From Phenylobacterium sp. CCH9-H3 (GTDB lineage Bacteria; Pseudomonadota; Alphaproteobacteria; Caulobacterales; Caulobacteraceae): a stretch of DNA of 23,689 bases. The notes beneath the pieces are model-generated. The model was not told where the DNA came from. It saw only the letters and a program-made list of their open reading frames with translations, and made no database searches. Shown here one piece after another: positions 728 through 15,358 of this stretch (position 1 is the first letter of the stretch; each line of letters starts with the position of its first letter). A program made the translations under genes and the position numbers. The stretch covers positions 1 to 23,689 of the forward strand of contig NZ_LSJI01000015.1 of assembly GCF_001557235.1 (NCBI RefSeq), in the 5' to 3' direction.

Positions 728-782
728 GGCGACTCTCCTCTGCCGATGAGTAAGCTCGCACATTTTGAAAGCCCCGCCCCGG

Positions 783-804
783 GGCCCTGGAACACGCAGG
801 GGCC
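783..804 (-). terminator. GC-rich hairpin between the PaaK-like ligase and the small-protein trio
   Basis: The arms GGCCCTG (783-789) and CAGGGGCC (797-804) pair with one bulged base around a 7-nt loop. It follows the ligase stop codon on the minus strand and precedes the first small-protein gene. No clean U tract follows on the minus strand, so it could be a weak terminator, an attenuator or an mRNA-stabilising hairpin. Confidence 0.3.
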
Positions 805-854
805 GGAAGTGGCGGTCGCGGGCAAGCTAGCGGGAAAGTCCGCAATGAGCAACC

Positions 855-2240
855 TTAGGTTTTCACGCCCGTGCCGCCCGAGGGCGGCGCGTCGGCCGCG
901 ATCAGCGTCCTGTAGCGCTGGAATTTTGCGCCCGGCTGAAAGACGGCGACCGCAACCTCCAGTTCGAAACGGCCCTCGACGATCCGTTGGGCGGCGGAGC
1001 GCACCTCGTCGAGGAGATAAGCTCCTGAAGGATCCAGGAACTCCACCCTCAGCTCGGCCCGGTCAAGGGCGAGCTGGGTCACCTGCAACTCCCGCAAGGG
1101 GAAGGCGCCGAAGAGCTGGTTGAGGTTCGTCGGCGCGAAATAGCCGCCGCCCGCAAGGGGGAAGGACGGCGCCTGGCGGCCCGTGAGCCGCAGGATGCGC
1201 CGACCGGGAAGGCCGCACGGGCAGGGCTCATCCGTGACGGCGGCGAAGTCACCCGTCCGGTAGCGGAGTATCGGCATCGCCCGGTTGCGCACGCTGGACA
1301 GGACCAGCTCGCCCTCGCCCGTCCAGCCCAGGGCGCCGTCGGCGGCCAGGACCTCGCAGATGAGCGCACCCTCGTGGATGTGCAGGCCGGGGCCTCCGCA
1401 GCAGGAGGAGGCGACGCCCCCCGTTTCGCTCAGGCCGTAGGCGTTGACGATCGGCAGGCCGATGCGCTCCTGCGCCTCCAGACGGAGCGGTTCAGGGAGC
1501 TCGGCCCCGCCGCTGATGATCGCGACCGGCCCGTCGGCGAGCCTGGGTGCGCGCCCGTCGAGCTGCTCCAGGAGGATGTGCAGGATGTTGGGCTTCAGGC
1601 TGAGGACGGCGGGCCGGTGCCGCCGGACCAGTTCGGCGATGTCCTCGCTGGCCGACAGAGACAGCGTGTCGAAGACGACCCGCAGGGTGGCGCCGGTGAG
1701 GCAGGAGGGATCGGTCCAGATCCGGTCGTTCAGGTAGCTGTTGTCGAGGATGGTGAGCGTAAAGATCGGCCGGTCGTCGAGGATCCCGGGAAGCAGCCCG
1801 GCGTAGCAGAGGGCCGCGCAGGCGGAGAAGTACTGGAGCTCCGCAAAGCTCGTGGCGTCGTAGTAGACCGTGACGGGCGGGCCGCTCGTTCCCGAGGTCG
1901 GCCGGGTCCAGAGGCTCTCCTTCGCAAGCCCCGGCCGCAGGAAGGCTTCGGAGCGGGTGCGCAGGGCGTACTTGTCGATCAGCGGGATCGTCGCCTCGTA
2001 GTCCGCCCGGTCCCACTCAACGCCGGCGTAGGCGGGGACCAGGGCGGCGGCGGCGCGGATCGCCTGGCGAAGCCGCGTCCAGGGCCTTCGGCCGTGGTCC
2101 AGCCCGACGCCTGCCGCGAAAGCCTCGAAGGACTTCCTGGCGTCCTCGATGACGGCCGCGGCCTGCACATGCTCGATCAGATCGAACGCAAAGCGGGGGT
2201 TCTGTTCGACGAAGCGGCCGAACGCTCCGGGCTCCTTCAT
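855..2240 (-). CDS. PaaK-like adenylate-forming ligase (phenylacetate-CoA ligase family)
   Basis: This is a 461-aa ANL-superfamily enzyme of the PaaK/CapK branch, expected to activate a carboxylic acid as acyl-AMP and pass it to a thiol or another acceptor. The phosphate loop TSGTSGPP is at 115-122, the adenine motif AYGLSETGG at 267-275 and YRTGDF at 327-332. C280/C281, H287/H289 and the CPCG pair near 340-343 resemble the metal-site region of PaaK proteins. A C-terminal K439 (GAKFQR) is a candidate catalytic lysine. I chose the ATG at 2240, which has AAGGAGG about 10 nt upstream; a longer reading from 2378 would run through the divergent promoter region and overlap the next gene. It diverges from the glycosyltransferase and is followed by the small-protein trio. 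The substrate is unknown. No phenylacetate degradation genes are nearby, so a biosynthetic role is more likely. Confidence 0.85.
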   Translation of the reverse strand: MKEPGAFGRFVEQNPRFAFDLIEHVQAAAVIEDARKSFEAFAAGVGLDHGRRPWTRLRQAIRAAAALVPAYAGVEWDRADYEATIPLIDKYALRTRSEAFLRPGLAKESLWTRPTSGTSGPPVTVYYDATSFAELQYFSACAALCYAGLLPGILDDRPIFTLTILDNSYLNDRIWTDPSCLTGATLRVVFDTLSLSASEDIAELVRRHRPAVLSLKPNILHILLEQLDGRAPRLADGPVAIISGGAELPEPLRLEAQERIGLPIVNAYGLSETGGVASSCCGGPGLHIHEGALICEVLAADGALGWTGEGELVLSSVRNRAMPILRYRTGDFAAVTDEPCPCGLPGRRILRLTGRQAPSFPLAGGGYFAPTNLNQLFGAFPLRELQVTQLALDRAELRVEFLDPSGAYLLDEVRSAAQRIVEGRFELEVAVAVFQPGAKFQRYRTLIAADAPPSGGTGVKT

Positions 2241-2344
2241 CGCCTCGATGCCTCCTTGAAGGGGAAGGCTCCGCTTCCACAATCCATGATTGACATCCCC
2301 GGAGCCGAAAACAAACTGGCGGCTAGGTCCGGAGGGATGGGTCG
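2241..2344. promoter_or_regulatory. Divergent promoter region, PaaK-like ligase / glycosyltransferase
   Basis: This 104-bp gap separates two divergent starts. On the plus strand TTGACA (2290-2295) is a perfect -35 sequence, with a weak -10-like CAAACT about 16 nt on. The glycosyltransferase ribosome binding site GGAGGG is at 2331-2336, 8 nt before its GTG start. The minus strand has only weak candidates. The promoter assignment rests mainly on the gene layout. Confidence 0.4.
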
Positions 2345-3679
2345 GTGAGCAGGATCGCGGTCTTCCCGATAGACGCAATCGGCCACGTGAAGTCGGTCCT
2401 TTCCGCCGTCGCGCCCCTGGCGCGGGACCGGCGGCTCACGGTGACGGGGTACGGGAGGAGCTTCCTGGAGGAGGCTTTCGCACGGGCCGGCCTGGGTTTC
2501 GAGGCGACCATGGCCGAGCCGCAGCCCGACGATCCCCAGGGCGACCTCCGGTGGAAGACCTTCGTCAGGCCGGGCCGCGACCTGGGCCGCACCCTGGAGG
2601 CGGTGGACCGCTTCCGGCCGGATGTCGTCCTCTACGACCCGTTCTCGCTCTCCGGCCGGATGGCCGCGGCGGTCAGCAGCGCGCCATCGGCCGCCTTCGT
2701 GACCATGCACGGCTACGGGGTGCTCGCGGACGACTTCGTGCGGGCGAACGGCTGGGACCGTGACGATGTCCTGGAAGCGAACGGCGCCTACCGCCGGGCC
2801 TGGGGCGTCGACCTGCGGGCGGAGGGGGCACTGCCCGTGCTGTTCCCGTCGCGGGACATGACGCTGGTCCACACCACGCGACGCCTCCACAACGTTGTGA
2901 GGCCGTCGCGCCAGCCGCTGCTTCACTGCCTGCTGCGCGACAGCGCTCGGGAGACGCCCATCGGCTGCTGGGCGGATTGGGACGCGGTCGCCCCCAGGTC
3001 GGAGGAGGCGCCGGACGAAGCCGCCGACCGGGCTCTACTCGCGCGGCTGGCCGCGGCCAAGGCCGAAGGCCGCCGGGTGGCGCTCTTCTCGCTCGGAACG
3101 GTCATAACCGACTTCCGATATGGAACCCCCGTGGGGGGGGCGCCCAGCGGGTCGGCCTTCCTCCGCCAGATGCTCTCCCACGCCTTTGAGGCCGCCAGGC
3201 GCGATCCGGGCCTGCTGTTGGTGGCCTCGGTCGGGCGCAGATACCTGGCCGACCGGCCCCTGGAGGCGCCGCCGAATGCGATGGTGCAGCCGAACGTGCC
3301 CCAGGCGCAGATCCTTCGCCACTACGCCGACGTGTTCATCACCCATCACGGGGCGAACTCTGAGCGGGAGGCCGTCCTGGCCGGCGTGGGGATGGTGTCC
3401 CTTCCGGGCGCCGGGGACCAGGCGCCTAACGCGCGCGCGGCGATCGCCAACGGCGCGGCGCTCGCCCTATGGGATCTGGAGGACCCCTTCGGCAGCTGCA
3501 CCGCCGAAAGCGTCGCCACAGCCATCGACAGGGTGAGCCGGGAGCCGGGCTTCCGCGCGGCCTGCGAGGCCCTGGCGTGCGAGATGCGGCAACCGGCGGG
3601 GACCTCCAGCCTGGCCGACCGCCTCCTCGCCCTTGCCGGGGCCGGGGCCGTGGCGGAGCCCGCCGAGGCTTCGCCATGA
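2345..3679 (+). CDS. GT1-type (UGT/MGT-like) glycosyltransferase
   Basis: This 444-aa protein has the organisation of GT-B glycosyltransferases that transfer sugar from a nucleotide-activated donor. The N-terminal IGHVKSVL places H14 where GT1 enzymes carry their catalytic base. The C-terminal donor-binding signature starts at about residue 333 (THHGANSEREAVLAGVG) and runs through a proline loop to DQAPNA at 358-363, matching the UGT-type HGG..S..E....P....DQ..NA pattern. The start is GTG with GGAGGG 8 nt upstream. The stop overlaps the ATG of the radical SAM gene as ATGA, so the two are translationally coupled. No signal peptide or membrane anchor is visible, so it should act in the cytoplasm. 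Donor and acceptor cannot be read from sequence; candidate acceptors include a small molecule from this locus or the small proteins. Confidence 0.85.
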   Translation: MSRIAVFPIDAIGHVKSVLSAVAPLARDRRLTVTGYGRSFLEEAFARAGLGFEATMAEPQPDDPQGDLRWKTFVRPGRDLGRTLEAVDRFRPDVVLYDPFSLSGRMAAAVSSAPSAAFVTMHGYGVLADDFVRANGWDRDDVLEANGAYRRAWGVDLRAEGALPVLFPSRDMTLVHTTRRLHNVVRPSRQPLLHCLLRDSARETPIGCWADWDAVAPRSEEAPDEAADRALLARLAAAKAEGRRVALFSLGTVITDFRYGTPVGGAPSGSAFLRQMLSHAFEAARRDPGLLLVASVGRRYLADRPLEAPPNAMVQPNVPQAQILRHYADVFITHHGANSEREAVLAGVGMVSLPGAGDQAPNARAAIANGAALALWDLEDPFGSCTAESVATAIDRVSREPGFRAACEALACEMRQPAGTSSLADRLLALAGAGAVAEPAEASP

Positions 3680-4896
3680 AGTCCTGGACCCTGTCGGAGC
3701 TGCGATCGTGGCAGCAGGGCGATCCCGCGGGAGAACTCGCCATCTACGGGGCCGGCGATCTGGGGAAGCTGGCGCTCGAGGCCCTTGGGCGGGCCGGGCT
3801 GCGCGTGGACGCCTTCTGCGACGACAGCCCGCTCAAGGACGGCGCGGCCTGGGCCGGGACGCCGATCCTCTCGCTCGAAGCCCTAGCTATCCGGCATCCG
3901 TCGTGCCGGGTGCTGATCGCTCACAACTACTTCTCGGCCGTTCTTCCCCGACTTGCTGCCGTCGGACTGGCGGAGGTCAGCGACTGCTCGGGGATCTTCC
4001 AGAGCGCGGACCTAGCCGGGGTCGACGTGGGTGTGCATGCGCTGGAGATCGACCGGAAGATCGCCTGGCACCACCGGGAGTGCGCCAAGGCCGCGGGCGG
4101 GGATCACCTCACCCTCAAATACGTGGACGTGGTGATCACTGAGGCATGCTCTATGCGCTGCGCCGACTGCTCGAACCTGATGCAGTACTACGCCAAGCCC
4201 AGGCACGCCGACTTCGATGAGCTCTGCGAGGACCTGCGACGCCTCCTGGGGGCCGTGGACTGGATCGACGAGGTGCGGGTGCTGGGCGGCGAGCCCCTTG
4301 TCAACAAACGGTTCGGGGAAATCGTGCGGGTCCTCTCGGGCTACAGGAATTTCCGTCACCTGGTGGTCTACACCAATGCGACCATCGTCCCGGGGCCGGC
4401 GGCGATGGCCGCTCTTGGCGATCCCCGGGTGACGGTGAACATCACCGACTACGGCCGCCTTTCCCGCAACCTCGACGCATTCACCTCAGCCCTCGACGCC
4501 GCGGGCGTTGCCTACCTGGTGAAGCAGCCGTCCTGGACGGACTCCGGCCGCATCCGGCCGCAGTCGAAGTCTCCTGCCGAGCTCGACGCCCAGTTCGAGC
4601 GGTGCTGCGTGAACGACATCCTTACCCTGCTCCACGGGCGCATCTACCGCTGCCCGTTCTCGGCCAACCTCACCAACCTCGGGGTCGCCGCGGCCGGCGC
4701 CGGCGAGGTGGTGTGGGTAGGACCCGACCGCCTGAGGTTGCGGAAGGACCTGCGCGAGCTGTACGGCCGCAAAGGCCACCTCACCGCCTGCAGCTTCTGC
4801 AGAGGACGCGACTATGCGACCCCGAAGATCCCCGCCGCCATCCAGGCGGCGCGGCCGCTGGCGCTGCCACCGATTCAGACCGCGCTGAAGCCGTAG
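3676..4896 (+). CDS. Radical SAM protein with N-terminal Rossmann-like domain
   Basis: This 406-aa protein has two parts. Residues 19-110 form a nucleotide-binding-like domain opening with LAIYGAGDLGK. Residues about 148-375 form a radical SAM domain with the cluster motif C158-SMR-C162-AD-C165 (CX3CX2C) and the SAM-binding GGE at 204-206. C-terminal cysteines (C310, C311, C326 and the C372/C375 pair in ACSFC) could bind an auxiliary iron-sulfur cluster, as in SPASM/twitch enzymes. Radical SAM proteins with a similar CSxRCxDCSNLMQYY core occur, as far as I recall, in surface-polysaccharide gene clusters. The ATG at 3676 overlaps the glycosyltransferase stop; a longer reading from 3469 lies inside that gene and is rejected. 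The 3' end overlaps the convergent aldose-epimerase-like gene by 22 bp. The reaction is unknown. Confidence 0.85.
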   Translation: MKSWTLSELRSWQQGDPAGELAIYGAGDLGKLALEALGRAGLRVDAFCDDSPLKDGAAWAGTPILSLEALAIRHPSCRVLIAHNYFSAVLPRLAAVGLAEVSDCSGIFQSADLAGVDVGVHALEIDRKIAWHHRECAKAAGGDHLTLKYVDVVITEACSMRCADCSNLMQYYAKPRHADFDELCEDLRRLLGAVDWIDEVRVLGGEPLVNKRFGEIVRVLSGYRNFRHLVVYTNATIVPGPAAMAALGDPRVTVNITDYGRLSRNLDAFTSALDAAGVAYLVKQPSWTDSGRIRPQSKSPAELDAQFERCCVNDILTLLHGRIYRCPFSANLTNLGVAAAGAGEVVWVGPDRLRLRKDLRELYGRKGHLTACSFCRGRDYATPKIPAAIQAARPLALPPIQTALKP

Positions 4897-5870
4897 CGAG
4901 TGTAGTGGACGTAGGTCTCCCCGGCCTCCAGGCGTGGGGAGGGGAAGTCCGGGCGGTTGGGGGCGTCCGGCCAGGCCCCGGTCTGCAGGCAGAGGCCGGT
5001 GCGGCGAGCCGGAAGGTGGTCGCCGCTATAAACGGCCAGGCCTGGTTGGTCGGTCTCGATGGTCATCGTGCGGCCGGAGGCGGGGTGCTCGAGCCGGGCC
5101 GCCCAGCCCGGGTCATCCAGGGCGTAGCAGAGGTCCAGGGTGCGCGCACCGATGGTCTCAGGGAACCGCAGATCGCATGGGCTGTCGTCGACCCGCCGGG
5201 GCGGGCCCGGCAGGGGCATGAACGCCTCGTCGGCGGCGATGAAGCGCGAGGCGTTCACCGCCAGCCGGTGTTCGTCGATCCTTCCGGTTCCGGCCAGGTT
5301 CCAGAAGGCATGGCTGGTCAGTCCAACGATCGTCGGCGCGTCGGCGACGGCGCGATGCTCGATGGCGAGATCGCCGTCGCCCGAGACTCGGTAACGGGTC
5401 TCGACCTCGACGGCCCCGGGATACCCCTGGTCGCCGTCAGGACGCTTGAGGCGGAGGACGAGGTCGACGTGCGCCGGGGAGCTCTCCACCTCGGCGTCCC
5501 AAACGAACCTGTCGAATCCCCGGCTGCCACCGTGGAAATGGTGCGGGCCCATGTTGCGGTCGAGCTGCCAGAGGCGGCCGTCGATCTGCAGGCGCCCGTT
5601 CCGGACGCATCGCGCAAAGCGCCCCATGACGCAGCCGATGTAGGGGTTCCTGGCCGGGTCGACGTAGGCCTCCAGGTCTGGCAGCGTGAGGCAGACGTTG
5701 GCCAGCCGGCCGGACCGGTCCGGGGTCTGGGCCTCCACGAGCGTCGCGCCGTAGGTCCAAACCTCGACGACGAGCCGCCCTTCCGCCTCGGCCCGGAGCG
5801 CCTCGACGGGGTGACGGCTTCCATCATCGGGATCCGTGAAGCTCCCGACGGTGCGGCGGGAGACTTTCAT
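4875..5870 (-). CDS. Aldose 1-epimerase (GalM)-like protein with catalytic Glu replaced by Gln
   Basis: This 331-aa protein spans the usual galactose mutarotase length and fold signature: HFHGG at 111-115, GLTSHAFWNL at 183-192 (candidate general acid H187), CDLR at 232-235 and a C-terminal PDAPNRPDFPS block. In characterised GalM enzymes the general base is the Glu of the CLET motif just before that block. Here the motif reads CLQT (Q296), and the codon is CAG on the minus strand. The protein may therefore bind sugars without normal mutarotation or use altered chemistry. The start ATG overlaps the stop of the upstream GNAT gene (ATGA), so the pair is co-translated. The 3' end overlaps the radical SAM gene by 22 bp. 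Its place next to a glycosyltransferase and SIS protein supports a sugar-related role. Confidence 0.85.
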   Translation of the reverse strand: MKVSRRTVGSFTDPDDGSRHPVEALRAEAEGRLVVEVWTYGATLVEAQTPDRSGRLANVCLTLPDLEAYVDPARNPYIGCVMGRFARCVRNGRLQIDGRLWQLDRNMGPHHFHGGSRGFDRFVWDAEVESSPAHVDLVLRLKRPDGDQGYPGAVEVETRYRVSGDGDLAIEHRAVADAPTIVGLTSHAFWNLAGTGRIDEHRLAVNASRFIAADEAFMPLPGPPRRVDDSPCDLRFPETIGARTLDLCYALDDPGWAARLEHPASGRTMTIETDQPGLAVYSGDHLPARRTGLCLQTGAWPDAPNRPDFPSPRLEAGETYVHYTRYGFSAV

Positions 5871-6706
5871 TCCGGTTCAGCAGTCGCGAAGCGGTACTCG
5901 ACGGCCTCGAGCACGGGCTGGAAGCCGAGTCCCAGGAAGAGCCGGTTGGGGACAGGATTGGCGAGATTGGTGATGAGCACGCACTCATTCCCGGCGAGCA
6001 GGACGCGCGCCGAGAGCTCCGCGACGGCTGCGGCGGCATAGCCGCGGTTGCGCAGGGTCTGCGGCGTGAACACCGCCTGCACGCGAACTACCCCGAAGAC
6101 AGGCGGGGTGACCCCCACCACCGTCACCGGGCCGCCATCCTCCCAGAGGAGGTACCGTCCCTCGCCGAGCCGGCGGCCCACCATGCCGGTCGCCGTGACG
6201 GGATCCTCGCCAGTCTCGGCGAGGAAGCCTTCCATCAGGCCCACCACGTCCCCGCCGTCGGAGGGGGCGGCCCGGCGCAGCTTTCCGGGCGCCGGCCGGG
6301 CGGAGCCAGGAACCGGGAGGCGCCAGAGCCTGCGGCCTTCCACGGGCTGCGCGCCGCGTCCGACACTCTCGAGCCAGGCGCCCGCAAAGGCCGCGGCCGC
6401 GCCCGCCGGACCGCGCACCCCGGGCGCCCTGGAATCGTGTGCGGCGACCGCCTGGGCGATCCGGCGCGCATGGGTGTCCGGCATCGGCGCGAGGTTCACC
6501 GGCCGGCCGGGGGTCTGCACGGCGAGCGCCGTCGGAACGCCGCCATCCCGGGCGAGCCAGGCGGTTGCCGGCCGGGCCTGGGCCGCGGCCTCGTGAAGGA
6601 CGGATGCCCCCTCATTCGCCCCGACGGGATCATGCCTGAGTAGCGGGGCGGCCGAGTCCAGCGCGAGCTGCGGATCCTGGAATGTCTCGATGTCCAGAGG
6701 CGCCAC
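5867..6706 (-). CDS. GNAT-family N-acetyltransferase
   Basis: This protein of about 279 aa has a C-terminal GNAT domain. VQAVFTPQTLRNRGYAAAAV carries the acetyl-CoA pyrophosphate-binding R-x-x-G-x-A pattern (RNRGYA, about 219-224), and NRLFLGLGFQPV near the end is the usual GNAT motif-B region. The N-terminal half (DIETFQDPQLALDSAAPLL onward) fits two-domain GNAT proteins in which it packs against the catalytic domain. I place the start at GTG 6706 because the family-like sequence begins there. A TTG at 6751 in frame is possible, but TTGACA at that spot may instead be a -35 box. It is coupled through ATGA to the GalM-like gene. The acceptor amine or alcohol is unknown; an amino sugar or amino acid intermediate of this locus is plausible. 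Confidence 0.75.
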   Translation of the reverse strand: MAPLDIETFQDPQLALDSAAPLLRHDPVGANEGASVLHEAAAQARPATAWLARDGGVPTALAVQTPGRPVNLAPMPDTHARRIAQAVAAHDSRAPGVRGPAGAAAAFAGAWLESVGRGAQPVEGRRLWRLPVPGSARPAPGKLRRAAPSDGGDVVGLMEGFLAETGEDPVTATGMVGRRLGEGRYLLWEDGGPVTVVGVTPPVFGVVRVQAVFTPQTLRNRGYAAAAVAELSARVLLAGNECVLITNLANPVPNRLFLGLGFQPVLEAVEYRFATAEPE

Positions 6707-6803
6707 CTTTCCCGGGGACGCAGGCTGCCGCGCGGCACGTATAGGTGTCAATCGGCCGGCGCTCGGCTAATACTGGCGGCGCCGTGGCCGGAATGCCCTC
6801 CTG
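6707..6803. promoter_or_regulatory. Divergent promoter region, GNAT / methyltransferase
   Basis: This gap of about 97 bp separates divergent starts. The minus strand contains TTGACA (6746-6751), a perfect -35 match without an obvious -10. The plus strand contains TAATACT (6768-6774), a fair -10-like element about 30 nt before the methyltransferase ATG. No strong ribosome binding site precedes that ATG. The assignment is by layout and these short matches only. Confidence 0.35.
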
Positions 6804-7583
6804 ATGGACCGATCAACTTCTGACGCAGCGCCTGAAGCGAACCCGTACGGATCGACGTTCGCGCGTCTCTACGAGCACGCCTTAAACGGTTGGATGCGCA
6901 CCTTCGCCCCGCGCCTGCGCGACTACCTGGCGCGCTTCGTTCCGCCCGGCGGCCGTATCCTGGACCTGTGCTGTGGCACCGGCGAGACGGCGGTGACTCT
7001 GCTCGAGGGCGGCTGGCGCATCGTCGGGCTGGACCGCTCCGAGGCGATGCTCGAGATAGCTCGTCGTAAGCACGCGCGTGCCATCGCGGAGGGCCAGATC
7101 GCGCTGGTCCGGGGCCAGGCGGAAGGCTTCACCTGCGTCCAGTCCTTTGACGCCTGCGTGTGCGTGGATGGGGCCCTGAACCACATGCCCGCCCTTGAGG
7201 GCCTCCGGTCCTGCTTCCAATCGGTGGCCGTCGCCCTCAAGCCCGGCGGCCACTTCGTCCTCGACCTGCTCGAGGCCTCGCATTTCGCCGGCTGGAAGAA
7301 CGTCCAATTGACTGAGGACGAGGAGCACAGGATCGTCCGGTCCGGAAGCTGGGATCCGCAGCGCAACCTTGCCCTTCTGAACATCTCGGGCGCGATCGGG
7401 GCCGACCGGCGGCCCGTGGACGAGACCCTGACGAGCCGCGTCTTCGACCGGGCCGAGGTCGAGGCGGCCCTGGCTGCCGCCGGGCTCGAGCCCCTGGGCT
7501 GCGACCTCGAGGACCCCCGTCCGACGGGGCGCAGCTTCTACCACGCGCGTAAGCTCCCTCGCCGAAAAGGGGCCGGCGCTTGA
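6804..7583 (+). CDS. Class I SAM-dependent methyltransferase
   Basis: This 259-aa Rossmann-fold methyltransferase has its SAM-binding motif I, ILDLCCGTGE, at 52-61. The acidic loop is at GLDRSEAML (D77), and the post-motif strand around ALKPGGHFVLDLLE is near 148-160. It resembles the broad small-molecule methyltransferase group (Methyltransf_11/25 type) rather than a DNA or rRNA methylase. It is the first gene of a three-gene plus-strand block; its TGA overlaps the TTG start of the BtpA-family gene. The N-terminal NPYGSTFARLYEHALNGWM resembles the substrate-capping helix of sugar and polyketide N/O-methyltransferases. The substrate is not determinable. Confidence 0.85.
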   Translation: MDRSTSDAAPEANPYGSTFARLYEHALNGWMRTFAPRLRDYLARFVPPGGRILDLCCGTGETAVTLLEGGWRIVGLDRSEAMLEIARRKHARAIAEGQIALVRGQAEGFTCVQSFDACVCVDGALNHMPALEGLRSCFQSVAVALKPGGHFVLDLLEASHFAGWKNVQLTEDEEHRIVRSGSWDPQRNLALLNISGAIGADRRPVDETLTSRVFDRAEVEAALAAAGLEPLGCDLEDPRPTGRSFYHARKLPRRKGAGA

Positions 7584-8383
7584 TCTTCGAGGCCGGCGGC
7601 CGGAGGAAGACGCTCCTCGGCATGGTCCATCTCAGCCCGCTGCCGGGGACCCCGTTCTACGAGCCCGACAGCTTCCCGAGCCTGGTGGACAGGGCCGTGA
7701 CATCGGCGGTGACGCTCGAGAGCGCAGGGTTCGACGGCTGCCTCGTCCAGACGGTGGACCGCGTCTATTCCGTCGCCGACGAAGCCGATCCGGCGAGGAT
7801 CGCCGCCATGACCATCGTCGTGCGCGAGGTGGTGAGGGCCACCTCGCACGGGTTCAAGGTCGGGGTGCAGATCATGTACAACGCCGTCCGCGCCTCCCTG
7901 GCCGTGGCCAAGGTCGCGGAAGCCGACTTCATCCGCGCCAGTGCGGTGGTGGGAGCCTCCGTCAGCGCCCATGGCCTGGTGCAAGCGAATCCGGAAGAGG
8001 TCTCACGCTACAGGTCCGCTATTGCGGCTTCGGACGTGGCAATGGTCGCCGATGTCGGAAGCATGCACTTCCGCTGGCTCGGCGGTGACCGCGGCGTCGG
8101 AGAAGTGGCCGTCCTCGCGCACAGGGCGGGAGCGGACGGCGTGGCCGTCTCCAATCCGGACGAAGCCGCCCTCGCGGCGGCGCTGCGGGAAATCCGCGGT
8201 GCTGCGCCACAGCTGCCGGTGATCCTGGCCGGGGGCACCACCCACGGGAACGCCGGCCGGCTCCTGGCGCTCGCCGACGGCGCCTTCGTGGGCGGCTGCC
8301 TGGAGCGCCAGGGCTGGGGCGGGGCGATAGATTCGGAGCTGGCGCGAAACTACGTCGCGCGCGTCCGGGCCGGCGCGGGCTAG
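7580..8383 (+). CDS. BtpA/SgcQ-family TIM-barrel protein
   Basis: This 267-aa protein matches the BtpA family in length and signature: LLGMVHLSPLPGTPFY near the N terminus, a GVQIMYNAVRASLAVA segment, then DFIRASAVVGASVSAHG, a VADVGSMHF strand, and GADGVAVSN with a C-terminal LAGGTTHGN phosphate-site-like loop. The family takes its name from a cyanobacterial photosystem I assembly factor, but homologues such as SgcQ occur in sugar gene clusters and have no settled reaction. The start is TTG overlapping the methyltransferase TGA, with AAAAGGGG about 8 nt upstream. Only 2 nt separate it from the SIS gene. The pairing with an SIS sugar-phosphate protein favours a role on a phosphorylated sugar or nucleoside substrate. 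Confidence 0.8.
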   Translation: MIFEAGGRRKTLLGMVHLSPLPGTPFYEPDSFPSLVDRAVTSAVTLESAGFDGCLVQTVDRVYSVADEADPARIAAMTIVVREVVRATSHGFKVGVQIMYNAVRASLAVAKVAEADFIRASAVVGASVSAHGLVQANPEEVSRYRSAIAASDVAMVADVGSMHFRWLGGDRGVGEVAVLAHRAGADGVAVSNPDEAALAAALREIRGAAPQLPVILAGGTTHGNAGRLLALADGAFVGGCLERQGWGGAIDSELARNYVARVRAGAG

Positions 8384-8385
8384 GC

Positions 8386-9498
8386 ATGGATCCGGATCCG
8401 CCCTCCCCCGATGTCATGCTGCGCCAGGCCGCCGCCCTGGCGCCGGACCTGCGGGCCCTGGTCCCGCGGCTGGAGGATGACCTTCGGCGCCTGTCCTCGG
8501 CCGTGGCCTGGAAAGGGCTAGATGAGGTAGTGGGCGTAGGCAGCGGCGACAGCCATTTCGCCGCCCTCGCCTCGGCGGCAGCCTTTCGTCGGTTCGCCCA
8601 AGTGCGACTGCGGGGGCTCTCTTCTCTTGCCTATCCCTACGAGGCCGAGACTGTGGGCCCGCGCAGCCTGGTGATCGGCACCTCGGCCTCGGGCAAGACA
8701 CCGGGCGTGATCTCGGCATTGGAGGACGCCGGCAAGCGGGGCGGGCCGACCCTCGCCCTGACCTCCACGCCCCATGCGCCGATCATGGTTGCGGCGTCGG
8801 ACGCCCTCCTGCTCAGGCTCGGGTCAGACGAGCCGTCGCCGGGGATCCGCACCTTCCAGGCCAGCCTAACCGCGCACATCCTTGTCGCCGTGGCGTTGGG
8901 AAGGGCGCGTGGGATCCTGTCGGGGCCGGAAGCGGGCGCCGTTGTGGGCCGGCTGCTGGCCTGCTCCGCCCTCTTGGAAGAGGTCCTAAGACGGGCGACC
9001 GCCTTCGTGGAGCTCGCCTCGGAGGGGCTCGCGGCGGCGCCGTCGACCATGGTGCTGGGCGCAGGTGCAGGTCTCGGGACCGCGAAGTACGTGGCGGCCA
9101 AGGTGGTGGAAGGCGCGGCCTGCTTCTGTGTCGGCCAAGACATCGACGAGTGGTGGCACGTGGAGCGCTTCGCCGACCCGCTGGATGCGCCCTTGATCAT
9201 CCTGGCGCCGGACGCTCCCGCCTGGGGCCGGGCGGCCGAGGTCGCCGCGGGCGCCCGGGGCCTGGGACACCCCGTGTTTGCGGTATGCCCACGGATTGCG
9301 CGCGGGCTCGTGGAGCAGGCCGACCTGTGGCTGGAGGTCCCGGACGTTGAGGAAAGCTTCTCGCCGCTGGTCTACAGCCTGGTGGGTCCGCTCCTGGCCG
9401 CCGCCTTGGCGAAACGCCTGGGGAGGGGACCCTTCCGGGCGGACCGCCCAGAGGTTGGCAGGCGCATGCGGGAGTACCTCCGTTCCGTTGCCGACTAG
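8386..9498 (+). CDS. Double SIS-domain protein (GlmS C-terminal/AgaS-like)
   Basis: This 370-aa protein has two sugar isomerase (SIS) domains, as in the isomerase half of glucosamine-6-phosphate synthase and in AgaS-type deaminase/isomerases. The first half has GVGSGDSHFAAL (50-61) and the phosphosugar loop GTSASGKTPGVISAL (98-112). The second half has VLGAGAGLGTAKYVAAKVVE (223-242) and DEWWHVE (254-260), corresponding to the E-x-x-H region that contacts substrate in this family. There is no glutaminase domain, so free ammonia, deamination or simple aldose-ketose isomerisation are the options. It is the last gene of its block. Its TAG shares a CTAG tetranucleotide with the stop of the convergent aminotransferase. 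Confidence 0.85.
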   Translation: MDPDPPSPDVMLRQAAALAPDLRALVPRLEDDLRRLSSAVAWKGLDEVVGVGSGDSHFAALASAAAFRRFAQVRLRGLSSLAYPYEAETVGPRSLVIGTSASGKTPGVISALEDAGKRGGPTLALTSTPHAPIMVAASDALLLRLGSDEPSPGIRTFQASLTAHILVAVALGRARGILSGPEAGAVVGRLLACSALLEEVLRRATAFVELASEGLAAAPSTMVLGAGAGLGTAKYVAAKVVEGAACFCVGQDIDEWWHVERFADPLDAPLIILAPDAPAWGRAAEVAAGARGLGHPVFAVCPRIARGLVEQADLWLEVPDVEESFSPLVYSLVGPLLAAALAKRLGRGPFRADRPEVGRRMREYLRSVAD

Positions 9499-11084
9499 AC
9501 CGCTGCGGGCTGCGGAAAGCGAAGGCCGGCCAGGCGGTCGGCGGCGTCCCGCAGGTCAGGCGCCGTGCGGGCCGTGGTCATCCGCATAATCGCGCCGGAA
9601 AAGCAGAAGGTGAGGATGCCCGGAAGGAAGGACACCCCGGTCTGGGCGAGAATGTCGCGGTAGCAGACATAGGAGTCGCGCCAGCCGGGGAACCTGACCG
9701 CGGCGTTGACCGAGAAGCGAGGGACCATGACCTCCGCGCCGAGATCCTGCATCAGGCCCACGGACACGTCGCGCAGCGCCAGCAGGCCAGCCTCCGCGCC
9801 GCGGCGATCGCCGCGGTAGACGCTGTAGGCGGTCTCCAGACGCGACGGCGTCAGACCCAGATGAGGCTCGAACTCCATGAACTCCGATGGGCCGGGACAG
9901 TCCAGCCCCTCCAGCAGCCAGCGCTCCAGCCGCGCCATCACCTCTATGAACAGGTAGAGCAGGGACGGCGGGCCGCCGTAGGTCGTCGAGGCGAACTCGT
10001 AGTATTCCGCGATGACAGCCGCGTCGCCGACGATCCAGCCCGCCTTGAAGCCCGGCGCGGCCCAGGATTTCGACACGCTGGCGATGCGCACGACGTTTGC
10101 TGACGCTCGCAATGGCGACCGCCAGGGGAGCTCGCCGACGCATTCATGGCACTCGTCCAGCAGGATCATGGTCTGCGGCGAGGCCTTGCGGATCAGCTCG
10201 GCGAGCTCGTCCTCGTCCACGGCGCCGCCCGTCGGGTTGTTCACCGTCTGCAGCAGCACCAGAGGTGTCTCCGGACGAAGCTGGTCTATCAAGGGCCGGA
10301 GGGAGACGACCCCGTCCCGGCAGGGGACCGCCGCGAGGGACACCGGGGCCCGTCGGGCCACGGCCTGCACGAGAGGAGGATAGTTGGGGATCGCCGCCAG
10401 CGCCGGGGCGAGCGTCGCCCGGCGGGACCCGAGGATGAAGTCGGCCAGCGCATTGACCGAGAAGGTGCCGCCCAGGGTGAGGGCCACATTGGCCTCGTCG
10501 TACACGGTCAGGCCGAGCCGCTGGTTCTCCAGCCTGGCGACCGCCTCACGGCAGGCCAGCCGGCCGCGGGAGTCGGAGTAGCCGTACCAGTCCTGGTCCA
10601 GCGAGAAGCTGAGGGCGGCCTTCAGCACCTCGGAGAGCCCGAAGGCCCGTTCGTCCACCGCGCCGCCCGAGAGGATCACCTTGGCCACCGGCCGATGGCG
10701 GCCGTAGAGGTCGTCGCGGAAGAAGGTGTTGAAGAGCTCCTTGATGAAGGTGACCGTGCTCGGCCCGCTCAACACCTCGTCCGCCGTCGCCGACCGCCGG
10801 CTGCGGGATTGCCGCCACAACTCGGCCTCCGGTGTCGCCGCCTCGGCCTGACCGGCCTCGGAGGCCACCCGGCCGAGCCACAGCGCGTGCAGCTGCCGCC
10901 AGTCCCCCGGGTCCTCCGCCCGGGCGAACACCTCGAGCACTCGCTCGTCCACTTCGGGGGCATAGGCCCTGAAACCGTCGGCGGCCCGAGGGACAGACAG
11001 CGGGGGCGGGTCCATCGGGCGCTGCCGGAGCGGCGAGCTGAACAGCCCGGTCGAGACCGTCCCCGGAGTGCCTCCCGCGGCCAT
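9495..11084 (-). CDS. Fold-type I PLP-dependent aminotransferase
   Basis: This 529-aa protein has an N-terminal extension of about 130 residues before a class I/II aminotransferase-type domain. Recognisable features are YGYSDSRGRLACREAVA (167-183), NNPTGG (282-287), the cofactor-ring Asp in LLDECHE (D310), the Schiff-base lysine in ASVSKSW (K339), and MRMTTAR with a candidate carboxylate-binding Arg (R501). It may be an aminotransferase, decarboxylase or C-C bond-forming enzyme of this fold. The ATG is 2 nt after the oxygenase stop, with TGAGG about 11 nt upstream. ATG 11015 is an alternative start. Coupling to the oxygenase suggests that both act on the same amino acid or keto acid. Its stop overlaps that of the SIS gene. 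Confidence 0.85.
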   Translation of the reverse strand: MAAGGTPGTVSTGLFSSPLRQRPMDPPPLSVPRAADGFRAYAPEVDERVLEVFARAEDPGDWRQLHALWLGRVASEAGQAEAATPEAELWRQSRSRRSATADEVLSGPSTVTFIKELFNTFFRDDLYGRHRPVAKVILSGGAVDERAFGLSEVLKAALSFSLDQDWYGYSDSRGRLACREAVARLENQRLGLTVYDEANVALTLGGTFSVNALADFILGSRRATLAPALAAIPNYPPLVQAVARRAPVSLAAVPCRDGVVSLRPLIDQLRPETPLVLLQTVNNPTGGAVDEDELAELIRKASPQTMILLDECHECVGELPWRSPLRASANVVRIASVSKSWAAPGFKAGWIVGDAAVIAEYYEFASTTYGGPPSLLYLFIEVMARLERWLLEGLDCPGPSEFMEFEPHLGLTPSRLETAYSVYRGDRRGAEAGLLALRDVSVGLMQDLGAEVMVPRFSVNAAVRFPGWRDSYVCYRDILAQTGVSFLPGILTFCFSGAIMRMTTARTAPDLRDAADRLAGLRFPQPAAV

Positions 11085-11086
11085 GG

Positions 11087-11896
11087 CTATGCCAGCCTCA
11101 GGCGCTTGAGGTGACGCGGAGGCCCCCCGCGCGCCGGGCCCGCCGAAGTCCGACCATGGAAGTACCGCCGGTTGTCGAGCAGGAGGACAAGCCCCGCCGA
11201 CCAGGCAAGGCCAAGGGCTTGGCAGCCGTACATCGCCCAGAGCAGGCTTCGCAGCGCCGCCGACACCCCCTCCGGATCGATCTGCGGGCCCTCATAGGTC
11301 CAGTCGAGGGGTTCGTCCTGGAAGTCGCGGAAGGAGAAGACCGGCCGGCCCTCGGCCTCCCGCAGGACGGACGGGGCGCCTGGCGGGCCGTCGTACCGGA
11401 CCCCCTCCAGGATGCGCCGGGCCGCGGGATCGAGCCGGGCGGCCACCCCGGCCATTGGAGTCAGCAAGGTCAGCGCCTGCGCTTCAGCGACTCCGGGGTC
11501 GCAGCACAGGAAGAGCAGATACCGGGGCTGGCCGGCCAGAGGCTTGCGGCTGCTCTCGCTGTGCAGTGAGAGCTCGCCCGACGTGAACGGCTGCAAGGCG
11601 ACGTCTCCTGCTTGCGGCAGGGTGCTTCGGAGGTTGAGGATCACGCCGCGCGACGTGAAGGGCAGGACGGCAGGATCCCGTTCCGGCGTGGGGAGGCCAA
11701 AGGCCATCGCCAGCTCGATCAGCGTCTCGTCGTTGACGGGCTCGCTCGACCTGGCGATCGCGTAGCCGTCCGCCTCCACCCCGGCCTGGAGGCTGGGGGC
11801 AAGGTCGCCAAGCGGGCGCGGAGCAAGCACGGCGGGGTCGACAGCGAGCGGACGGACGGCGCCGCGGCCAGCGAGCAGCTCCCTGCGGAGGACCAT
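11087..11896 (-). CDS. Fe(II)/2-oxoglutarate oxygenase, TauD superfamily (clavaminate synthase/VioC-like)
   Basis: This protein of about 269 aa has the iron-binding facial triad: H112 and E114 in LSLHSESS, and H247 in LLDNRRYFHGRT. Arginines R261/R265 in the C-terminal RHLKRLRL can bind 2-oxoglutarate. The H-x-E form (rather than H-x-D), the DNRRxxHGR motif and the PRYLLFLCCDPG strand resemble the clavaminate synthase, VioC and asparagine oxygenase group. Those enzymes hydroxylate or desaturate free or carrier-bound amino acids. I chose ATG 11896, which has AGGA about 8 nt upstream; a GTG at 11977 would add a 27-residue unconserved leader. It is divergent from the ACP gene and coupled to the aminotransferase. 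The predicted role is oxidation of an amino-acid-like substrate, possibly one loaded on the neighbouring ACP. Confidence 0.8.
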   Translation of the reverse strand: MVLRRELLAGRGAVRPLAVDPAVLAPRPLGDLAPSLQAGVEADGYAIARSSEPVNDETLIELAMAFGLPTPERDPAVLPFTSRGVILNLRSTLPQAGDVALQPFTSGELSLHSESSRKPLAGQPRYLLFLCCDPGVAEAQALTLLTPMAGVAARLDPAARRILEGVRYDGPPGAPSVLREAEGRPVFSFRDFQDEPLDWTYEGPQIDPEGVSAALRSLLWAMYGCQALGLAWSAGLVLLLDNRRYFHGRTSAGPARGGPPRHLKRLRLA

Positions 11897-12018
11897 GTGA
11901 GGGTCCTGCGGTCGCTCTGCGAAGGATCCGGCTAGCCGCAAACTACCACCTAGAGATTGTGTCTGCGGCTTGTACACTAATGCGGATACGCCATGTGGCC
12001 AAGCTGAGGGAGGGGGCC
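11897..12018. promoter_or_regulatory. Divergent promoter region, oxygenase / ACP
   Basis: This gap of about 120 bp lies between divergent starts and is less GC-rich than its flanks. It contains a TGTACA palindrome (11971-11976) and TTGTGT upstream on the plus strand. No well-spaced sigma-70 pair is evident on either strand. The assignment is by layout. Confidence 0.3.
12006..12016 (+). promoter_or_regulatory. Ribosome binding site that fixes the ACP start
   Basis: The purine run GAGGGAGGGGG lies just before the TTG at 12019 and is the only strong Shine-Dalgarno sequence near the 5' end of this gene. It decides the start in favour of an 88-aa carrier protein rather than readings from 11959 or 11980. 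Confidence 0.6.
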
Positions 12019-12285
12019 TTGCCGGACGACGAAAGCACGGGCGCGCGGCGCGCGGCTGTCACCGAGGTGGCCGCCGACATCCTTAACCGGTCACCCCGAG
12101 AGGTCGACCCGGAGATGGACCTCGCCGCCGCCGGCATGGATTCCCTGGCCTTGGTCCGCTTCATGCTGGCTCTGGAGGCACGCTTCGGGATCTCCTTCCC
12201 GGACGGGTCGCTGGAGGCCGAGGCGTTCGGCACCGTGGCGGCCGCCGAGCGCACGGTGGCGGCCCTCGGGCAGCGGGTGGCGTAG
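12019..12285 (+). CDS. Acyl/peptidyl carrier protein
   Basis: This 88-aa carrier protein has the phosphopantetheine attachment motif GMDSLALV, with S42 as the modified serine. The four-helix pattern is typical: VTEVAADILNRSPREVDPEMDLAAAG precedes the motif, and LALEARFGISFPD follows. The start is TTG, chosen from the strong ribosome binding site at 12006-12016 and because the resulting length is normal for an ACP. It lies 3 nt before the AMP ligase gene, the expected loading partner. Divergent to it are the oxygenase and aminotransferase. This is consistent with modification of a carrier-tethered acid or amino acid. No ketosynthase or condensation domain is present, so it is not a full polyketide or nonribosomal assembly line. 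Confidence 0.88.
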   Translation: MPDDESTGARRAAVTEVAADILNRSPREVDPEMDLAAAGMDSLALVRFMLALEARFGISFPDGSLEAEAFGTVAAAERTVAALGQRVA

Positions 12286-12288
12286 GTC

Positions 12289-13893
12289 GTGCTCCTGGAA
12301 TCCCCCGCCGACCGTGAAGCGGTGCGCCTGTACAGGGGCGCGGGGTTCGACCCCGCGGCACACCCTGCCGCGACCATCCCGGCCCTCCTCGAGCGGCAGG
12401 CCGCCCGGCTGGGCGACCGCCCGTACCTGACCGCCGTCCCGCCTAGGGGGGAGCCCGAGACCCTCTCCTTCGCCGAGACCGCCGGCCGCGCGCGAGCCGT
12501 GGCGCTCTGGGCCCAGGCTTCGCTCGACGGCGCCCGGTCGGGAGTCGTCGCCCTGGCCCCCCGCAACGACCTCGCCTCCGTGGTGACCATTTTCGGCCTG
12601 CTGCACGCCGGCTTGAAGATCCTGCTGCTCAACCCCGCCGATCCTCCGGACCGCAAGCGCCAGCAGATCGAGGCGGCCGGGGCGGAGGCCGCCGTATCCT
12701 GTTCGCCCCGGCATGAGGATCCGAAGGGCTGGCTGGCGCTCCCCGAGGTGCCGCTGCCCGGCGACGAACGGGTGCCACTCCCCTCGCCGCAGGACGACGG
12801 CTCCTTCCTGATCGGCACCTCGGGATCGACGGCTGCCTCGAAGCTGGTGCTGCAGACCCATGCCAACGCCCTCGCCAACGCAGCGGCGGTGGTGCGCCAT
12901 CACGCGCTCGCTCCCGGCGATCGCTTCGCCGGCTGCCTGCCCATCCATCACGTCAACGGCCTGCACTTCACCCTGGTGGGCATGCTCGCCGCCGGCGCCC
13001 ACGCGATCCTGTTCGAACGCTTCGATCCGTTCGGCTATCCACGGGCTCTGCAGGCGTGGCGGCCGCGGATCGCCAGCGTCGTGCCCAGCCTCCTGGAGGC
13101 CCTCCTAGCCGGCAACCGGGGCGAGGGTCTTCCGGACAGCCTCCATTACTTCGTCTCGGCCGCGGCGCCCCTGGCGACCGCGACGGCCCGGCAGGTTGCC
13201 GACAGCCTCAGGCGGCGTGTGGTGCAGGGTTACGGCCTCACCGAAACCACCAACTTTTCCTGCACCCTTCCCGCGGACCTGTCGGAGACGGCTTACGCCC
13301 GCCTGATGCTCGACGCCGACATCCCCTCCATCGGGGTGGCGGTGCCCGGCAACGAGGTTGCGGTCCTCGATCCCGACGGCCGGGTTCTGCCGCCCGGCGA
13401 GCGCGGAGAGATCTGCATGCGCGGCCACAACGTAATGGCCGGCTATGCGGGCAACCCCGAGGCCACCGCCGAGGCCTTCCGGGGCGGTTGGTTCCATTCA
13501 CAGGACCTCGGGATGGTGGTTCGGGACGGGGAGTCAGACCGGGCCTATTTCGTGATCACCGGCCGCGCCAAGAACATGGCCAAGGTGGCCGGGGAGGCGG
13601 TTTCCCTGGAGGAGGCGGAGCGGGTGCTCCGCAAGCTCCCCGGCGTCGCAGACGCCGCCTGCGCCGCCATGTCCGACCCGCTGTACGGGGAACGCCTGGT
13701 GGCCCTGCTGGTGCTCACCGAGGAGCTTCCGGACGCCGCCGTGCGCGCCCACCTCGCAGCGGCAATGTCGGCCGCCGCCCAGCCGGCGCGCATTCTGCGC
13801 GTCCCCGGCATTCCGCGGACGCAGACGGGCAAGATCCGCCGGCCGGAGCTGAAGCAACTGGTGGCGGAGCTGACCGGCCGCAAGCCCGCCTAG
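12289..13893 (+). CDS. AMP-dependent acyl-CoA synthetase / ACP ligase (ANL superfamily)
   Basis: This 534-aa enzyme has the full ANL motif set: phosphate loop GTSGSTAASK (176-185, with AAS where GLP/GKP is usual), PIHHVNG (218-224), GYGLTET (314-320), the ribose-binding Asp in HSQDLG (D406), the hinge region TGRAKNMAKVAGE (424-436) and the catalytic C-terminal lysine in TQTGKIRR (K515). It should activate a carboxylic acid as acyl-AMP and transfer it to the phosphopantetheine of the adjacent ACP or to CoA. The start is GTG 3 nt after the ACP stop. Its TAG shares a CTAG with the stop of the convergent GNAT gene. It is not closely related to the PaaK-like ligase at the other end of the locus, so two separate acid activations are encoded. 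Confidence 0.88.
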   Translation: MLLESPADREAVRLYRGAGFDPAAHPAATIPALLERQAARLGDRPYLTAVPPRGEPETLSFAETAGRARAVALWAQASLDGARSGVVALAPRNDLASVVTIFGLLHAGLKILLLNPADPPDRKRQQIEAAGAEAAVSCSPRHEDPKGWLALPEVPLPGDERVPLPSPQDDGSFLIGTSGSTAASKLVLQTHANALANAAAVVRHHALAPGDRFAGCLPIHHVNGLHFTLVGMLAAGAHAILFERFDPFGYPRALQAWRPRIASVVPSLLEALLAGNRGEGLPDSLHYFVSAAAPLATATARQVADSLRRRVVQGYGLTETTNFSCTLPADLSETAYARLMLDADIPSIGVAVPGNEVAVLDPDGRVLPPGERGEICMRGHNVMAGYAGNPEATAEAFRGGWFHSQDLGMVVRDGESDRAYFVITGRAKNMAKVAGEAVSLEEAERVLRKLPGVADAACAAMSDPLYGERLVALLVLTEELPDAAVRAHLAAAMSAAAQPARILRVPGIPRTQTGKIRRPELKQLVAELTGRKPA

Positions 13894-14393
13894 GGAACGT
13901 CGGCCGCCAGCGCCTTCTCGAGATAGACGCGCGGGCGTTCGGGCCCAGCGCGCGGCGCCCCCACCGGGACAAAGCCGTGGGCGAGCAGCATGCCCAGCAC
14001 GCGCGCGAGATCGGGATTGGCCTCCGCCCGGATCACATCCGCTCCAGCGGCCCGCGCCACATCGAGCGCTCGCCGGACGGCCCGCGCCCCGAGATAGGGA
14101 TGCTCGAGCCTGAGCGCGGGATGCACGGCCAGCCGCTGCATGTAGACGGCTGCCGCCGAAGGCGCGTAGTCGGTCAGGGCCAGGTCGAAGGGAGGATCGC
14201 GGGTGAGCGTGACCATGGCGGCGGGCTTCCCGTCCATGCGCAGCAGATGGACCGAGCCCGCCTCGACCCGCCGGCGGGTTCCGACCAGCGAGCGTTGCGG
14301 GGGGCCCGCGCCGGTGTCCGAGGCCACGTCGCTGGCGAGGAGCAGCTCGTGGACCTCGACCGCGTCCCGCGCCAACTCCCAGGCGCCGGTCAT
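13890..14393 (-). CDS. Small GNAT-family acetyltransferase-like protein
   Basis: This 167-aa protein has a GNAT-like layout. A central strand with MDGKPAAMVTL is followed by AAAVYMQRLAVHPALRLEHPYLGARAVRRALDVARAAGADVIRAEAN, where LAVHP and LGARAVRRAL occupy the acetyl-CoA site. A C-terminal LLAHGFVPVG is the usual GNAT ending. The R/Q-x-x-G-x-A loop is imperfect, so cofactor binding is inferred. The start ATG overlaps the SDR stop (ATGA). The stop overlaps the ligase stop within CTAG. It is the second GNAT protein of the locus; the acceptor is unknown. Confidence 0.75.
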   Translation of the reverse strand: MTGAWELARDAVEVHELLLASDVASDTGAGPPQRSLVGTRRRVEAGSVHLLRMDGKPAAMVTLTRDPPFDLALTDYAPSAAAVYMQRLAVHPALRLEHPYLGARAVRRALDVARAAGADVIRAEANPDLARVLGMLLAHGFVPVGAPRAGPERPRVYLEKALAADVP

Positions 14394-15358
14394 GGATCCG
14401 CCGCCTGCAAGCTCGCCACAGTCTCCGCCAGCGCGGCCTCCAGGGGGACGGCGTCCTCGCAGCCGAGCTCCACGCGGATGCGGCTGTCGTCGACGACCAG
14501 GTGCTGGCGGAAGTCCGCATGGGCCGGGAACTCGTCAATGAGGGGCCTGAGTGCGCCTTCAGTCCCGTCCTCCACCGCCCGGATCTCGTTCGTCAGGCCG
14601 GCCGCCCGGGCGATATGCCGGACCCATTCCAGCTCACTCAAGTCGTGCGGGGCCGGCGCGTTGTAGACCCTTCCGGGCACGCCGCGGAGCGTCACCAGGG
14701 CGATGGCCTGGGCGACGTTGCGCACGAAGTTGCGGGCGTTGCGCCAGGCCGCGGCGGTCTCACCCAGGACGAGGGGCCGACCGCCCCGCAGGCGATCCAG
14801 GTAGGCGCCGACCCGCCGGTCAGCGTCGCCGGGCCCGTAGACCATGGGCAGGCGGACGACGCTGGCGGGCAGCGCCCCGCCCAGGAATGCCCGCTCCGCC
14901 GGGATCTTGTCGTAGTCGTCCATCCAAAGCCTTGGGTCTCCGGCGCCGCGCGGCGCGGGCCCGCGATAGGGGAACATCCGCGACCGTAGCGGTTGGTTCT
15001 CGGAGAGCGGCGCAGGCAGGCTCCGACCGGGCTCCGTCCCCAGCAGGCGGCCGAAGGCGCGATAGACGCTGAGGCTGCTGACCGCCGCGGCGCGTCCGGC
15101 AAGCCCCACCAAGCAAGTGACGGCCTGCTCGGCGTCCCTTCCGTTCTGCGGCGTCATGTCGAGGACGACGTCGGGCGCAAACGCCGCGAAGTCGCCCCGC
15201 GAGGCGGCCAGGTTCCCCCGATCCCCATAGATGTGCCGCACGGTGCCCGATGGGCTCTCGGCGCCGCTCCGATGGAACAGGCAGAGCTCGTGGCCATTCA
15301 GGGCTCGGACCACCTCGCGGCCTATGAAGCCCGTGCCGCCCAAGATGAGGATGCGCAT
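14390..15358 (-). CDS. NAD-dependent epimerase/dehydratase (atypical extended SDR)
   Basis: This 322-aa extended SDR has the NAD-binding GGTGFIG at 7-13, an Asp-containing VVLDMTPQNG strand (64-73), SSLSVYRAFG (94-103) and the substrate-side VRLPMVYGPGD (168-178). The active-site tyrosine region reads DDYDKIPAER. Y149 is followed by K at +2 and P at +4, so the standard Y-x-x-x-K spacing is missing, as in atypical SDRs. It is probably a sugar-nucleotide epimerase, reductase or related oxidoreductase. It is the first gene of a minus-strand pair, coupled to a GNAT, and marks the edge of the compact locus: beyond it lies decayed DNA. The ATG has GGTGAAGAG just upstream. Confidence 0.82.
   Translation of the reverse strand: MRILILGGTGFIGREVVRALNGHELCLFHRSGAESPSGTVRHIYGDRGNLAASRGDFAAFAPDVVLDMTPQNGRDAEQAVTCLVGLAGRAAAVSSLSVYRAFGRLLGTEPGRSLPAPLSENQPLRSRMFPYRGPAPRGAGDPRLWMDDYDKIPAERAFLGGALPASVVRLPMVYGPGDADRRVGAYLDRLRGGRPLVLGETAAAWRNARNFVRNVAQAIALVTLRGVPGRVYNAPAPHDLSELEWVRHIARAAGLTNEIRAVEDGTEGALRPLIDEFPAHADFRQHLVVDDSRIRVELGCEDAVPLEAALAETVASLQAADP

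Follow-up and report, generated by a model that had tools for sequence, protein, structure and literature searches.

Only one family of products in which NAD itself is a structural building block has been worked out in the literature examined. In the sbz cluster (altemicidin, SB-203207 and SB-203208), the PLP enzyme SbzP couples NAD with S-adenosylmethionine, as stated in PMC11610977 and PMC10491745, the latter also reporting a 520 nm absorption for SbzP. Hu et al. 2019 (PMC6331615) present SbzM as a cupin, SbzL as an adenylating enzyme, SbzK and SbzG as carriers, SbzJ as an aldehyde dehydrogenase (ALDH) and SbzI as a GNAT. According to the same paper, 2-sulfamoylacetate is loaded by the ligase and carrier and passed by the GNAT to the scaffold amine, and deletion of sbzF abolished altemicidin, as with the other genes tested. 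Streptomyces antioxidans MUSC 164, whose locus (L013) served for our comparison, is given there as one of four strains with an sbz-paralogous cluster. Its gene order is MFS, TauD, PLP, BtpA, SIS, cupin, ligase, carrier plus ALDH, GNAT, GalM, carrier, luciferase-like, methyltransferase. The sbz letters from R to E fit this order at each fixed point, so that the PLP gene corresponds to SbzP; for N, O, Q, H, F and E, gene order is the only basis of the assignment.

The window (the whole stretch of 23,689 nucleotides that was analysed) carries a locus at 855-15358 which, by sequence, gene set and gene order, is well supported as a candidate SbzP-type NAD-derived alkaloid cluster. No characterised cluster in the data searched matched it exactly; the kind itself is one described recently (altemicidin-type), and what differs is the set of decorating enzymes.

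Layout and gene content of the locus

Fourteen ORFs, labelled via Pfam and NCBIfam scans, occupy 855-15358, and the 13 junctions between them span -22 to +104 bp, 10 of them between -4 and +3 bp. The tight coupling and the alternating blocks reported in a sequence-only reading of this DNA were thus confirmed, and its gene labels agree with both model sets, with the PaaK-like ligase below curated cut-offs and both GNATs weak. That ligase (855..2240, minus strand) matches PF00501 at 42.3 bits, has no match for the usual C-terminal domain and is PaaK by NCBIfam below every curated cut-off; a codon-bias gene caller makes a start at 2240 more likely than one at 2378. It is divergent from the GT1-type glycosyltransferase (2345..3679, plus; PF00201 and PF06722, UDPGT/EryCIII-like), 104 bp away. 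The radical SAM enzyme (3676..4896, plus), with a Rossmann-like N-terminal domain, a Twitch-type radical SAM domain and a CSMRCADC motif, overlaps by 22 bp the aldose 1-epimerase-like GalM gene (4875..5870, minus; PF01263, 206 bits). GNAT1 (5867..6751, minus) shows a weak FR47 match of 23.1 bits against a cut-off of 22.1.

The second plus-strand run consists of a SAM-dependent methyltransferase (6804..7583; PF13649), a BtpA-family TIM barrel (7580..8383; PF03437, 140 bits) and a SIS-domain protein (8386..9498; PF01380). It is followed on the minus strand by the SbzP/PseP-type PLP enzyme (9495..11084; class I/II PLP fold) and, across a gap of 2 bp, a TauD-type Fe(II)/2-oxoglutarate oxygenase (11087..11977; PF02668, HSE...H motif). 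An SbzG/K-like carrier protein (11959..12285, plus; PF00550, 48.7 bits; start uncertain, up to 11995) and an SbzL-like AMP-forming ligase (12289..13893, plus; PF00501 and PF13193) come next, then the SbzI-like GNAT2 (13890..14393, minus; weak PF00583, 21.1 bits against a cut-off of 20.7), which overlaps by 4 bp an NAD epimerase/dehydratase-type SDR (14390..15358, minus; PF01370).

To the right lie an S1/P1 nuclease gene and then genes for a HutC-type regulator and two PepSY proteins (Pfam, NCBIfam); to the left of PaaK the window stops after 855 bases. The junctions within 855-15358 leave little room for small ORFs such as a precursor peptide gene. Models for ketosynthases, condensation domains and transporters in Pfam and NCBIfam had no match among the 14 proteins, in agreement with the earlier view of a single biosynthetic locus that falls outside standard PKS/NRPS systems. 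Likewise, the 14 include no recognisable nucleotide pyrophosphatase, transporter or tRNA synthetase, and a Pfam scan of 20 window ORFs showed no tRNA synthetase (IleRS-like SbzA).

Of the 12 L013 proteins from E to Q, nine have a relative in the window: Q (TauD, 45% identity), P (PLP enzyme, 52%), O (BtpA, 55%), N (SIS, 41%), L (ligase, 53%), I (GNAT2, 41%), H (GalM, 53%), G (carrier, 33%) and E (methyltransferase, 44%). The cupin (M), the carrier-ALDH (K/J) and the luciferase-like F gave no match in the window at E <= 1e-3. Because SbzM, SbzJ, SbzF and SbzA are missing, the altemicidin pathway proper fails here; the lack of SbzF is a real difference, since its deletion abolished altemicidin, and as the sulfonamide genes are absent, the acid on the carrier must differ from sulfamoylacetate. 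The carrier, ligase and GNAT2 kinds lie together at 11959-14393, as do the same three kinds in sbz.

The PLP enzyme and its oxygenase partner

Searched against about 5.8 billion proteins, the PLP enzyme had 248 relatives, the best at 61% identity apart from itself among the 120 matches listed. Among solved structures PseP (815 residues; PDB 8k3h, 8k3i) alone stands out: its C-terminal part corresponds to PLP residues 45-519 at 444 bits, the next solved chain reaches 45 bits, and its N-terminal half matches the window TauD at 174 bits. The TauD and PLP parts are thus common to both systems, fused into one chain in PseP and encoded by two adjacent genes in the window. Such fusions also occur in two proteins among the database matches listed (P0100 and P0114), and because of these three fusions the window TauD and PLP enzyme very likely act as a pair. 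A literature search returned no published description of PseP or of the GT1/radical SAM subtype discussed below, which is a statement about that search and not about print as a whole. Going by kinship, PseP would carry out SbzP chemistry.

The PLP enzyme groups with PseP (444 bits) and with the PLP enzyme of an sbz-type cluster, far ahead of any transaminase (45 bits), which makes a scaffold from NAD and S-adenosylmethionine likelier; the label "undescribed" that the locus had been given was not borne out. Lys339 is invariant across 38 aligned sequences. A transaminase identity for the PLP enzyme was tried and rejected, as its scores fall below every NCBIfam transaminase cut-off.

In a PLP tree of 64 rows, which leaves out L024 (PLP frame under the length cut), the window falls in a set of eight (99/90) with P0004, P0005, P0006, P0008, P0062, P0118 and a Neorhizobium protein (P0099). 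Fifty-four other rows (96/83) comprise the actinobacterial loci except Gordonia, a Nostoc row and further database proteins, and the Paraburkholderia and Gordonia enzymes are long branches outside both sets. The position of the window enzyme on a deep side branch, together with 52% identity to L013, means that its substrates may differ. One alternative accordingly keeps the same core and changes the acceptor, the four-carbon unit of S-adenosylmethionine being coupled to NMN, NADP or another acceptor to give a different bicycle. The separate, supported set of eight and the genes lost relative to sbz fit this, but about 88 PLP residues are invariant over 38 diverse relatives, the window included, and the sugar-handling BtpA, SIS and GalM are kept; we consider a changed acceptor unlikely, although it is the best placed of the alternatives.

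Of the 11 rows bearing an organism name among 120 HutC relatives listed, nine are Phenylobacterium, one is 'Alphaproteobacteria bacterium' and one a MAG labelled Pseudoalteromonas distincta, so that the host would be Phenylobacterium or close to it; the best HutC relative in 398 sampled genomes reached 76%. Neither 390 genomes of the presumed host family (a family taken from the HutC-type regulator alone) nor 385 of the class yielded a match to the PLP gene at E <= 1e-60, with at most three candidates scored per genome; a control search in which all candidates were scored found it in five of five known carriers. The PLP gene therefore looks like a rare acquisition there. An empty site, sought via the S1/P1 nuclease in a search run without a control, was found in none of 199 genomes, and 226 pattern matches in viral contigs contained no relatives.

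Recurrence of the core and of the GT1/radical SAM pair

Related loci were collected through the PLP gene alone, 36 by a PLP profile scan of a genome collection and two from a plasmid collection. Partners were sought with tblastn (ORFs of L020, L034 and L037 are poorly called), and PaaK matches below 60 bits and other matches below 35 bits were dropped from the presence table. All six core partners (TauD, BtpA, SIS, GalM, ligase and GNAT2) are present in 18 of the 38 loci, at least four in 29, and one or none in four. Singly, TauD occurs in 33 loci, the ligase in 31, BtpA in 29, SIS in 28, GalM and GNAT2 in 26 each and the methyltransferase in 10; the carrier protein occurs in 12 at the 35-bit cut and in 17 at E <= 1e-3. 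Five right-flank genes used as controls matched in none of the 38 loci (E <= 1e-4), so the recurrence of the core partners is more than chance. In most loci the stretch compared extends 10 kb or less to either side, and absences in relatives are therefore lower bounds. The notion of a unit that stays together in relatives held for the core genes. GNAT1 and SDR relatives, and PaaK above 45 bits, occurred in 0/38 loci, with weak, short PaaK matches (36-45 bits, 76-83 residues) in eight, and in plasmid records PaaK and SDR had no relatives other than distant ones. Extra tRNA synthetases were seen in some related loci, an IleRS in L002 and, in L023, a synthetase of the class I E/Q type, a hint that there may be several targets.

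BtpA, SIS and GalM emerge as a feature of the class from these 38 loci and not from a paper. The BtpA model is a TIM barrel (pLDDT 90.1), for which Foldseek ranks TrpA, thiamin phosphate synthase and TenI first and places phosphoribosylanthranilate isomerase 19th and HisA 31st; such matches are generic and common for a TIM barrel and show no function. The SIS protein aligns with the GlmS isomerase domain and keeps Glu255, Trp256 and His258, conserved in at least 95% of 29 rows. Bearing on a reading of GalM as a dead enzyme, the window protein has Gln at a site where 20 of 26 covering rows have Glu and six have Gln.

The GT1 and radical SAM genes occur in the same five of the 38 loci (L001, L003, L006, L023 and L024), all from actinomycetes, side by side and never apart, the GT1 relatives at 40-44% identity; the radical SAM frame of L024 holds one internal stop. 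In 32 of the 36 genomes behind the genome loci (L008, L009, L029 and L031 left out), the radical SAM gene was found in four, each time at the cluster position. Among the matches listed (120 each), eight PLP/radical SAM pairs, matched by eye, share a longest contig of equal size, which is a proxy for linkage. One pair is from Neorhizobium sp. BETTINA12A (longest contig 75,537 bases), which probably belongs to the GT1/radical SAM subtype. Eleven tree rows labelled with this subtype, partly through the contig proxy, require four changes on the PLP tree, at least three by supported branches, which makes more than one gain or loss of the pair probable.

These patterns also bear on whether 855-15358 is two gene sets, an NAD-alkaloid core at about 4875-14393 with PaaK, GT1, radical SAM and SDR as independent neighbours. 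PaaK, GNAT1 and SDR lack relatives in the 38 loci and PaaK is divergent and 104 bp off, as independence would have it, but five loci also have GT1 and radical SAM next to the core, the radical SAM gene never leaves the cluster in the genomes searched, and the radical SAM/GalM and SDR/GNAT2 genes overlap. Two unrelated sets are therefore improbable, marginally more so than a changed acceptor.

Twitch radical SAM dehydrogenases (SpeY, BtrN) oxidise a sugar or cyclitol hydroxyl, and the window protein has their defining combination of a radical SAM core and a Twitch auxiliary domain. SpeY (PDB 7wzv, 7wzx, 7x0b) alone stands out in the comparison, at 19% identity over the aligned part, and BtrN ranks level with the RiPP maturases SuiB and SkfB. 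Unlike SpeY, the window enzyme has an extra N-terminal Rossmann-like domain, whose nearest rows are succinyl-CoA synthetase alpha and 3nkl. The GT1 and SpeY-like enzymes make the modified sugar proposed earlier plausible.

A proposed pathway and comparison with known systems

From the observed kinship, gene set, gene order and modelled folds we infer the reactions that would take place in the organism. It is likely that the locus is a cluster of the altemicidin (sbz) kind and that its PLP enzyme joins NAD and S-adenosylmethionine. This enzyme would take the four-carbon amino acid part of S-adenosylmethionine, expelling methylthioadenosine, and build it onto the nicotinamide ring of NAD by [3+2] annulation to give a 6-azatetrahydroindane dinucleotide, which TauD could then oxidise. 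At a guess, BtpA, SIS and GalM might strip ribose-phosphate off the ring nitrogen through ring opening, Amadori-type isomerisation and deglycation, and the methyltransferase would act on the deribosylated product. The 12289..13893 ligase probably loads an acid onto the carrier, in line with the sequence-only reading, though not sulfamoylacetate, and GNAT2 is presumed to move it to the scaffold amine; on the sbz precedent (PMC6331615), these three would transfer an acyl group once the amine is complete.

Three further steps would be peculiar to the window cluster. GT1 would attach a sugar, a hydroxyl of which the Twitch radical SAM enzyme would oxidise; PaaK and GNAT1, a possible second acyl-activating enzyme and acyltransferase, may add a second acyl group; and the SDR would catalyse a redox reaction, perhaps substituting for the luciferase-like oxidoreductase SbzF. 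The product is most likely a small ring-shaped NAD-derived alkaloid, probably with the acyl group and oxidised sugar as decorations. The full scheme with its decorations is tentative. Similarly speculative is the specific picture of a glycosylated NAD-derived azaindane alkaloid with a keto sugar made by the radical SAM enzyme, an SDR taking the role of the luciferase-like oxidoreductase and a target that may not be isoleucyl-tRNA synthetase.

The sequence-only reading instead put an amino acid on the carrier, to be processed by a standard aminotransferase and an oxygenase before a sugar is joined; the carrier, ligase, TauD and PLP fold are all present and oxidation of carrier-bound amino acids is known chemistry, but the PLP enzyme is far nearer PseP than any transaminase and the TauD-PLP pair recurs with BtpA, SIS and GalM, which makes this very improbable.

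Compared with sbz, represented by L013, the window shares the PLP enzyme, TauD, BtpA, SIS, ligase, GNAT, GalM, carrier and methyltransferase at 33-55% identity. It lacks the cupin, aldehyde dehydrogenase, luciferase-like oxidoreductase and tRNA synthetase of sbz and has in addition PaaK, GT1, radical SAM, GNAT1 and SDR, and its gene blocks alternate whereas those of L013 form a long one-way run. With the actinomycete GT1/radical SAM subtype it shares a PLP core and a GT1 adjoining radical SAM. The actinomycete subtype loci that were read contain an ALDH and, within the fetched stretch, no relatives of the window methyltransferase (0/5), PaaK, GNAT1 or SDR. The two together offer a small, concrete gene set and, in the window, a differently decorated member outside actinomycetes, opening questions on ribose-removing enzymes, on the replacement of SbzF and on radical SAM sugar oxidation on such a scaffold. 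If true, the keto-sugar reading would describe a hybrid pathway in an alphaproteobacterium, its scaffold logic altemicidin-like and its sugar oxidation spectinomycin-like.

Extent of the contig and its flanking repeats

The record of the PLP protein (SbzP/PseP type; 9495-11084, minus strand) gives a longest contig of 23,689 bases, so the window seems to be the entire contig. A second contig, of 26,873 bases, is also listed for the radical SAM protein (3676-4896, plus strand).

At the left end of the window (1-855), a 68-nt stretch occurs three times in tandem, at 136, 372, and 582 (63-81%), and the copies lie within small minus-strand ORFs bearing a GVDAA..EKVL.HLGLQ motif. Adjoining the right end of the cluster (855-15358), the S1/P1 nuclease gene (16418-17539) is partially repeated between 15466-15761 and 17033-17374 in two matching segments, one of 212 nt at 95% and another of 87 nt at 87%; the repeat may be a copy that has since degraded, or else the scar of an insertion. 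Farther right, two PepSY proteins are encoded side by side (22018-22803 and 22814-23521). Their genes have an 86-nt repeat in common with 76% identity, and the pair probably arose by tandem duplication.

Substitution in the aldose epimerase-like protein

The aldose epimerase-like protein (4875-5870, minus strand) carries Gln at a site occupied by Glu in 20 of 26 rows; in GalM this Glu is catalytic. Among the radical SAM relatives, the frame in the Streptomyces triticagri locus L024 (14181-15338) contains one internal stop.

Related loci

Additional tRNA synthetases were located close to two related clusters, one annotated as IleRS (L002, 20383-23538) and one of class I E/Q type by Pfam (L023, 2487-3920); clustering placed relatives in loci L032/L033 and L027.

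In the Streptomyces antioxidans locus L013 (16052-17695), a single 547-residue frame fuses a carrier protein to an aldehyde dehydrogenase, whereas in the sbz cluster these are counted separately, as K and J.
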